A stretch of DNA of 64,000 nt, from the NCBI GenBank assembly GCA_944325145.1, contig CALYDL010000001.1, positions 62,001 through 126,000 of the forward strand. The letters run 5' to 3'. Below are positions 4,449 through 34,752 of this stretch, in pieces. Origin of the DNA: Candidatus Gastranaerophilales bacterium. GTDB taxonomy: Bacteria > Cyanobacteriota > Vampirovibrionia > Gastranaerophilales > Gastranaerophilaceae. The number at the start of each line of letters is the position of its first letter. Position 1 is the first letter of the stretch. The position numbers were made by a program, and so were the translations under genes. The notes under the pieces were generated by a model. The model was given only the letters and a program-made list of their open reading frames with translations, did no database searches and was not told where the DNA came from.

Positions 4449-4640
4449 TTATTTTTTATTCAAATCTTTCGCTTTTTTAACTAAACCGCATTTTATGCAG
4501 GCAAAAACTTTTTTAGTTGAATCAACGGGCAAAAACGTGTGCTCGCAATTTTGATAATCATCTGAAAAATCTTTTTCAATTTTCTTTTCAGGGTTTTTAA
4601 TTTTGTTTATAATGGTAGAAATTAATTCAAAGATATACAT
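4449..4640 (-). CDS. Small Cys/His-containing (zinc-ribbon-like) protein
   Basis: A 63-residue protein with a possible metal site: Cys-Glu-His at residues 32-34 and CIKC at 48-51, separated by a short beta-like stretch (FLPVDSTKKVFACIKCG). The N-terminal 20 residues are amphipathic or hydrophobic (MYIFELISTIINKIK). It ends one base after metW on the opposite strand. The ATG lies six bases after a -10 TATAAT in a 23-bp gap shared with the divergent gene at 4664. Function unknown. Confidence 0.65.
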   Translation of the reverse strand: MYIFELISTIINKIKNPEKKIEKDFSDDYQNCEHTFLPVDSTKKVFACIKCGLVKKAKDLNKK

Positions 4641-4663
4641 ATTTTAATTATAATAAAATTATT
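4641..4663. promoter_or_regulatory. Symmetric divergent promoter, leaderless on at least one side
   Basis: The whole 23-bp gap between two divergent ATGs contains ATTATAAT (4647-4654). This reads as TATAAT on both strands, the two hexamers sharing the central TATA. Minus strand: TATAAT, then 6 bases, then ATG 4640. Plus strand: TATAAT (4649-4654), then 9 bases, then ATG 4664. There is no room for a ribosome site on the minus strand. Confidence 0.6.
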
Positions 4664-5473
4664 ATGAAAAATAAAATCGAAAAATTTATATCATCAACAG
4701 TTGAATTCCATGATATTTTTAAGGCCGTTGAAGTTGCAAACGAACTTAATATGGGCTTAGAAATCAGCAGGTTTGGCAAATTAAAAGATTTAGACGAATA
4801 TTTTGATGACACATTAAACCGCTATGAAGATGCAATTAAAGATTTAGAAGGCCCCCTAACACTCCATGGCTTTTTTTCAAACCTTTGCCCCACATCAAAA
4901 GACAAAGGAATAAGAGATGTTTCAATTAAAAGGTATTATCAAAGTTTAGAAATTGCTTCAAGGCTTGGGGCAAAAACAGTTGTTTTTCACACTTGTTTTA
5001 ATAATTTATTAAAACAACAGGTATATAGGGAAAATTTCTTTGTAAGTTCGGTTGAATTTTATAATGAAATTATTCCATATTTTGAAGAAAGAAAAATTAC
5101 GGCAACAATTGAAAATGTTCATGAGCCAAACGGGGAATTAATAAGAAATATAATAGCCGCTGTTAATTCACCCTACTTAAAAGCAACAATTGATATAGGC
5201 CACCTTAATTTGCATTCTTTAGTTCCTGCACGTGATTGGATTAAAGATTACGGCATAATGCTTCACCATATGCACTTTCACAACAACTTTGGCGATGAAG
5301 ATGCCCATGGTTCTTTAAAAAAAGGAACAATGGATGTTAAAAAAGTTCTTTTAAGTTTAAAAGAAATGCAAATTTATCCTCAAATAACTTTTGAAATTTT
5401 TGATAAAGAAGAATTAATTGAAAGTATTCAATATCTTGAAGAACTTCAAAATGAAATTGAATATGGAATTTAA
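4664..5473 (+). CDS. Xylose isomerase-like TIM-barrel protein
   Basis: A 269-residue protein of the sugar phosphate isomerase/epimerase and endonuclease IV superfamily (AP endonuclease 2 fold). Probable metal ligands follow the family order: His68 (LTLHGF), His109 (VVFHT), Glu150 (ATIEN), Asp177 and His180 (IDIGH), His204/206 (HMHFH), His215 (DAHG) and Glu244 (TFEIF). Substrate unknown; the two zinc dehydrogenases at 12.4-14.5 kb could in principle act with such an enzyme but are not adjacent. Its stop overlaps the convergent crcB stop. Confidence 0.82.
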   Translation: MKNKIEKFISSTVEFHDIFKAVEVANELNMGLEISRFGKLKDLDEYFDDTLNRYEDAIKDLEGPLTLHGFFSNLCPTSKDKGIRDVSIKRYYQSLEIASRLGAKTVVFHTCFNNLLKQQVYRENFFVSSVEFYNEIIPYFEERKITATIENVHEPNGELIRNIIAAVNSPYLKATIDIGHLNLHSLVPARDWIKDYGIMLHHMHFHNNFGDEDAHGSLKKGTMDVKKVLLSLKEMQIYPQITFEIFDKEELIESIQYLEELQNEIEYGI

Positions 5474-34723: not shown

Positions 34724-34752
34724 AAAAATATTTTATGTTAAAATCACAAGAT
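34724..34752. promoter_or_regulatory. Palindromic divergent promoter trmFO/rlmN
   Basis: ATTTTA-TGT-TAAAAT (34730-34744) is a perfect inverted repeat giving TAAAAT on each strand. It lies six bases before the trmFO ATG (minus) and eight bases before the rlmN ATG at 34753 (plus). The -35 regions would fall inside the opposite gene. Confidence 0.6.

Follow-up and report, generated by a model that had tools for sequence, protein, structure and literature searches.

The DNA analysed here is a stretch of 64,000 nucleotides (hereafter, the window) from a member of the Gastranaerophilales, gut relatives of cyanobacteria. At positions 4641–4663, a segment of 23 bp, ATTTTAATTATAATAAAATTATT, consisting of A/T throughout, separates the start codons of two divergent genes. 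The rightward gene (4664–5473, + strand) encodes a 269-residue AP_endonuc_2 protein (xylose-isomerase-like TIM barrel; Pfam E-value 2.9e-23), which shows weak similarity to MJ1311 in the PDB and, at 54 bits and so below the cut-off of 105, to the CbiR model. Among named relatives, the closest is the MAG Candidatus Galligastranaerophilus intestinigallinarum, whose + protein is 99% identical. The leftward gene (4449–4640, − strand) encodes a protein of 63 residues with a CxH..CxxC motif that appears zinc-ribbon-like by eye; it has no match in Pfam or NCBIfam, and relatives of it (MYI.EL..., CxH...CxxC) are present in 53 of 58 related genomes. Both open reading frames are real genes. ATG 4664 on the + strand and ATG 4640 on the − strand are each the first possible start of their frame, the − frame being closed one codon upstream by a TAA (4646–4644). 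In several other genera the small-protein gene seems to lie close behind an upstream gene and is not divergent.

The gap has the features of a compact promoter core, putatively bidirectional (4641–4663), centred on the palindrome ATTATAAT at 4647–4654, which supplies a −10 hexamer to both strands. On the + strand, TATAAT (4649–4654) stands 9 nt before ATG 4664 and predicts a start at A4661 with a 3-nt leader; on the − strand, TATAAT (4647–4652) stands 6 nt before ATG 4640 and predicts a start at the A of the ATG itself, with a leader of 0 nt. The initial annotation had given this same arrangement, a 23-bp gap with TATAAT on both strands at 6 and 9 nt from the ATGs, and the coordinates bear it out. 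The − gene has two possible registers, because A4655 creates a second − hexamer, TATTAT (4650–4655), which lies 9 nt before ATG 4640 and predicts a start at 4643 with a 3-nt leader. The segment ATTATAATA (4647–4655) can accordingly be read as TATAAT on the + strand and as TATAAT or TATTAT on the − strand; it retains A at −11 and T at −7 on both strands, and all three predicted start positions (4661 on +; 4640 and 4643 on −) are occupied by A. No SD sequence is found on either strand of the gap, and G and C are absent from 4641–4663. A scan of the window sequence detected no good −35 element on either strand of the gap promoter. A weak −35-like TTCAAA (4626–4631, + strand) lies 17 bp upstream of the + −10, inside the − gene; this match, seen in a single sequence, overlaps the MYIFEL codons of that gene. 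The idea of a conserved −35 was dropped for both strands, as no hexamer at that distance is kept across genera.

By itself, ATTATAAT is not rare in such AT-rich DNA: the window contains 8 copies where 5.75 would be expected, a count equalled or exceeded in 17 of 100 shuffles. Its placement is more demanding. In simulated 23-bp intergenic DNA the palindrome is present with P = 0.0046, and TATAAT on both strands at spacers of 5–9 occurs with P = 0.0014. Conservation across genera is stronger evidence than these chance figures.

A search of 383 genomes of the family yielded a homologue of the + protein in 106, and 60 loci were read, comprising 53 at 53–100% identity from five Gastranaerophilales genera and 7 at 42–46%. 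No small gene is seen upstream in the seven lower-identity homologues (L119–L125), which are excluded from the counts over 52–53 loci given below. Among the 53 orthologous loci, across the five genera, the small gene is divergent with an ATG in 52; at L108, scored as a miss because the script finds no − ATG, the sequence reads CAC (GTG), and the gene seems to start with GTG. These counts are not independent events, since the loci are phylogenetically redundant and the window's own locus (L001) is almost identical to L002 from genome G004.

Across this set the + box is strictly maintained, with TATAAT at 5–9 nt from the + ATG in 49 of 52 loci. Three loci depart from this: the gap of L007 lacks a + TATAAT, and in the two loci of genus g55 the hexamer is 21 nt away. 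A purine occupies the position seven after the box, where the + start is predicted, in 48 of the 49 loci, and does so alike at spacers of 6, 7, 8 and 9; the + start therefore seems to move with the box. A constant interval between box and start would produce this pattern and leave a leader of 0–3 nt. When 51 loci are aligned on the + TATAAT, most other positions of the gap diverge, and a T-run just upstream of the box is nearly constant.

The − side is kept less evenly. The exact palindrome is found at 34 of 52 loci: 8/9 in genus g1, 14/14 in g52, 2/2 in g53, 10/25 in g22 and 0/2 in g55. In g22, 15 of 25 loci have kept the + box and lost the palindrome, and the − half is thus less constrained than the + half. 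This disparity (a + box at 5–9 nt in 49 loci versus a palindrome in 34) is what would be expected if the box served the + gene only, its − half reflecting AT-rich composition, with the small gene hardly transcribed or transcribed from some other weak start. Such a reading also fits the abundance of ATTATAAT in the window and the fact that g22 loci often carry ACTATAAT or TTTATAAT instead of the palindrome. However, ACTATAAT retains A at −11 and T at −7 on the − strand (TATAGT), and indeed any TATAAT leaves a − hexamer with these two bases in the 18-bp register. Moreover, in g1, g52 and g53 the palindrome is complete in 24 of 24 loci that have a + TATAAT, the gap of the window's species offers no second − TATAAT, and the small protein is conserved. 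We consider service of the + gene alone to be unlikely.

Close spacing on both sides is the exception: both ATGs lie 5–9 nt from one exact palindromic box at only 6 of 52 loci. A − TATAAT at 5–8 nt from the − ATG occurs in 9 of 52 and is the shared palindrome in six of these (L001–L004, L008 and L010); a near − TATAAT is, at this frequency, not a constant trait of the small gene. Four further g22 loci have TATAAA 6 nt from the − ATG, and in the remaining relatives the − ATG is mostly 13–23 nt from the shared box. A − TATAAT of their own, 6–7 nt from the − ATG, is carried by three loci (L007, L104 and L115); in L006, inspection by eye shows a TATAAC-like box close to the − ATG. Going by their sequences, L006, L007 and the two g55 loci (L104 and L115) appear to use separate −10 elements, so sharing is not obligatory. 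As far as the compared gaps indicate, the arrangement in the window is the most compact version of a gene pair in which the + side is held strictly and the − side drifts.

Two further explanations were weighed. The initial annotation had named promoters inside the flanking genes as the arrangement that would count against a shared box, and one sequence candidate of this kind exists: TTTTCA-17-TATAAT (4585–4613), inside the − gene, could serve the + gene with a leader of ~44 nt. It scores 10/12, equal to the gap promoter. By eye, though, this box is present only in L001–L004, that is, the window copy and its three nearest relatives, and not in L005–L010, whereas conservation of the gap box extends across genera; a clear SD sequence is also absent, by eye, from the ~44-nt leader. 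We regard this upstream promoter as improbable. Least probable of all is an operator role, in which the dyad would chiefly bind a dimeric regulator acting on both genes. The flank symmetry does exceed the control (matches of 0.53–0.88 at distances of 3–8 from the centre in 51 loci, against 0.30–0.40 at 148 control TATAAT sites) and by eye extends to a 16-bp palindrome, TTAAATTATAATTTAA, in L010. We rejected this reading because that symmetry varies by genus, the arms are made entirely of A/T and the 51 loci are related; what stays constant is the −10 hexamer with its spacing from the ATG.

Short distances between a −10 box and a start codon are a wider property of the family. They were surveyed in 720 non-overlapping genes from ten genomes with an upstream gap of at least 20 bp, a restriction that cleared the TATAAT signal, which is noisy when all ATGs of open reading frames of at least 60 residues are taken. 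Exact TATAAT is found at a spacer of 6 in 2.4% of these genes and at a spacer of 7 in 1.4%, compared with ~0.5% at most of the other spacers; when one mismatch is allowed, the figure at a spacer of 6 is 8.2%, against ~2–3% at most other spacers. In total, 38 of the 720 genes have an exact TATAAT at 5–10 nt. On this positional signal, the family has a class of predicted leaderless genes with a peak spacer of 6–7. An SD sequence accompanies 1 of the 38 TATAAT-near genes versus 332 of the 682 others, a deficit that is partly forced because the box sits in the SD region and on which we do not lean. The spacer-6 signal is the one that Zheng et al. (2011; PMC3160421) describe for TA-led genes, in the portion of that paper available to us a TANNNT/TATAAT ~12 bp before the start codon. 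Both genes of the pair carry it: the − gene has TATAAT at a spacer of 6, and the + gene has TATAAT at a spacer of 9, with a predicted leader of 0–3 nt across 49 loci. Relative to the TA-led genes as described there, the − gene lies at the typical distance, whilst that of the + gene is at the upper limit of the range.

Taken together, the gap probably represents a −10-symmetric, bidirectional, sigma-70-type promoter, of the kind mapped in E. coli, with near-leaderless initiation of both genes. The start sites, the use of the box by the − gene, the mode of translation and the exclusion between polymerases are what we infer, as follows. RNA polymerase holoenzyme would bind the one symmetric −10 in either orientation. 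Rightward transcription would begin at about A4661 and give an mRNA with a 3-nt leader (AUU-AUG); leftward transcription would begin at 4640, yielding a leaderless message, or at 4643, yielding a 3-nt leader. In the first register, TATAAT is paired with TATAAT and the predicted starts at 4661 and 4640 are 21 bp apart; in the second, TATAAT is paired with TATTAT, the predicted starts at 4661 and 4643 are 18 bp apart, and each side would have a 3-nt leader. We think that one or both of these registers may operate. Both messages, lacking an SD sequence, would be translated by leaderless-type initiation, and a gap that needs no ribosome-binding site could in consequence shrink to scarcely more than a −10 and its start points. 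The two polymerase orientations would be mutually exclusive on the DNA.

Two proposals of the initial annotation stand in modified form. That one −10 serves both genes is partly supported by the reality of the two genes and by a shared, conserved box, and would not extend to L006, L007 and both g55 loci, where separate −10 elements are likely. That both sides are nearly leaderless agrees with the lack of an SD sequence and with a leaderless class in the family that has the same box-to-ATG distance; as a property of the pair it is limited, the doubly short form occurring at only 6 of 52 loci.

Other compact divergent pairs were sought among gene calls in sampled DNA of the family, with the other-family set G045 left out. 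A symmetric −10 is present in 3 of 13 other divergent gaps of 10–45 bp, against 0.46 expected (P = 0.011), an enrichment that is post hoc because the patterns were chosen after the gaps had been seen and that is weakened by the inclusion among the three of kdsA/recA (L085), whose start is doubtful. The kdsA/recA pair is itself probably not doubly leaderless, as the recA start is, by eye, likely to be a later Met. The nadD/rqcH pair is divergent across a 23–24-bp gap around GTATTATA in five of five members of the genus among 30 loci read (L080:17442-17464, from the window's own genome, and L207–L211; Pfam CTP_transf_like and NFACT). From its sequence, this gap is likely to be a second two-way, near-leaderless promoter; in several other genera nadD has, by eye, a similar box ~6 nt from its start. 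It is conceivable, and we suggest it tentatively, that leaderless initiation repeatedly packs divergent Gastranaerophilales genes around a single symmetric −10, the entire gap then forming one two-way promoter rimmed by the two start codons, that the members of each such pair compete for one polymerase site, and that the present pair and nadD/rqcH are conserved examples.

Further short divergent gaps were noted in passing. Symmetric or overlapping −10 boxes are found in the 22-bp gap of a TPR protein/BioB-like pair in g52 (L162:2714-2735) and in the 28-bp gap of a ComF-like/QueA pair in G002 (L145:7757-7784). The names BioB, ComF, QueA, NadD, KdsA and RqcH are our own assignments, guided by Pfam matches. 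Two divergent gaps of 30–31 bp from the same genus (L078:3909-3938 and L141:12827-12857) have AAAGAGGGGG in common and are of a leadered compact type. Within the window, first-ATG calls place another two divergent open reading frames 11 bp apart (34724–34734).

If the proposed promoter is real, it would be a near-minimal unit for two genes, with ~23 bp between start codons and almost no leaders. It would provide a natural test, free of leader effects, of how polymerase chooses its orientation at a perfect −10 palindrome, and it would imply that divergent genes can sit closer together than the usual lower limit when translation is leaderless. For bacteria known chiefly through metagenomes, as these are, promoter rules that can be read from sequence are useful in themselves.

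That bidirectional promoters with a symmetric −10 are known in bacteria, as the initial annotation held, is confirmed by published work on E. coli (PMC12825309 and PMC10268837). According to the sections of these papers available to us, −10 symmetry makes many bacterial promoters bidirectional, the figure given being 19% of E. coli RNAs; divergent starts are usually 18 bp apart (PMC10268837), and the two orientations compete only at high activity (PMC12825309). The gap resembles the promoters described there by Warman, Grainger and colleagues in E. coli and Salmonella in that one near-symmetric −10 is read on both strands, and in its location, as those promoters are found on chromosomes most often between divergent genes. 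It also allows either their commonest spacing of 18 bp or one of 21 bp, the starts here being predicted. By contrast with those promoters, as far as they are described in these sections, both start codons of the present pair are at most 9 nt from the box and both messages are predicted to be leaderless or nearly so; the word ‘leaderless’ does not occur in PMC12825309 or PMC10268837.

The survey of TA-led genes handles single genes, and ‘divergent’ was not found in the text of PMC3160421 as searched. In the cyanobacterium Anabaena, the available part of PMC9938897 describes cvkR and cas12k as neighbours that, like the window pair as predicted, both have leaderless mRNAs; 82 nt separate the two start codons, the locus names (alr3614 and all3613) point to opposite strands, and a shared −10 is not stated in that part. 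Back-to-back, overlapping divergent promoters have been mapped in Mesoplasma florum (PMC7745072), and the portion of that report available to us describes neither a single shared palindromic −10 nor leaderless messages in both directions. Among the open-access papers listed on leaderless together with bidirectional or divergent promoters, we recognised no bacterial case in which both start codons lie within one shared −10, nor did we recognise one among those on leaderless genes in Melainabacteria/Vampirovibrionia. Shared −10 elements and leaderless genes are each already known; a gap in which a single shared −10 takes in both start codons seems to be a compact variant built from these parts.
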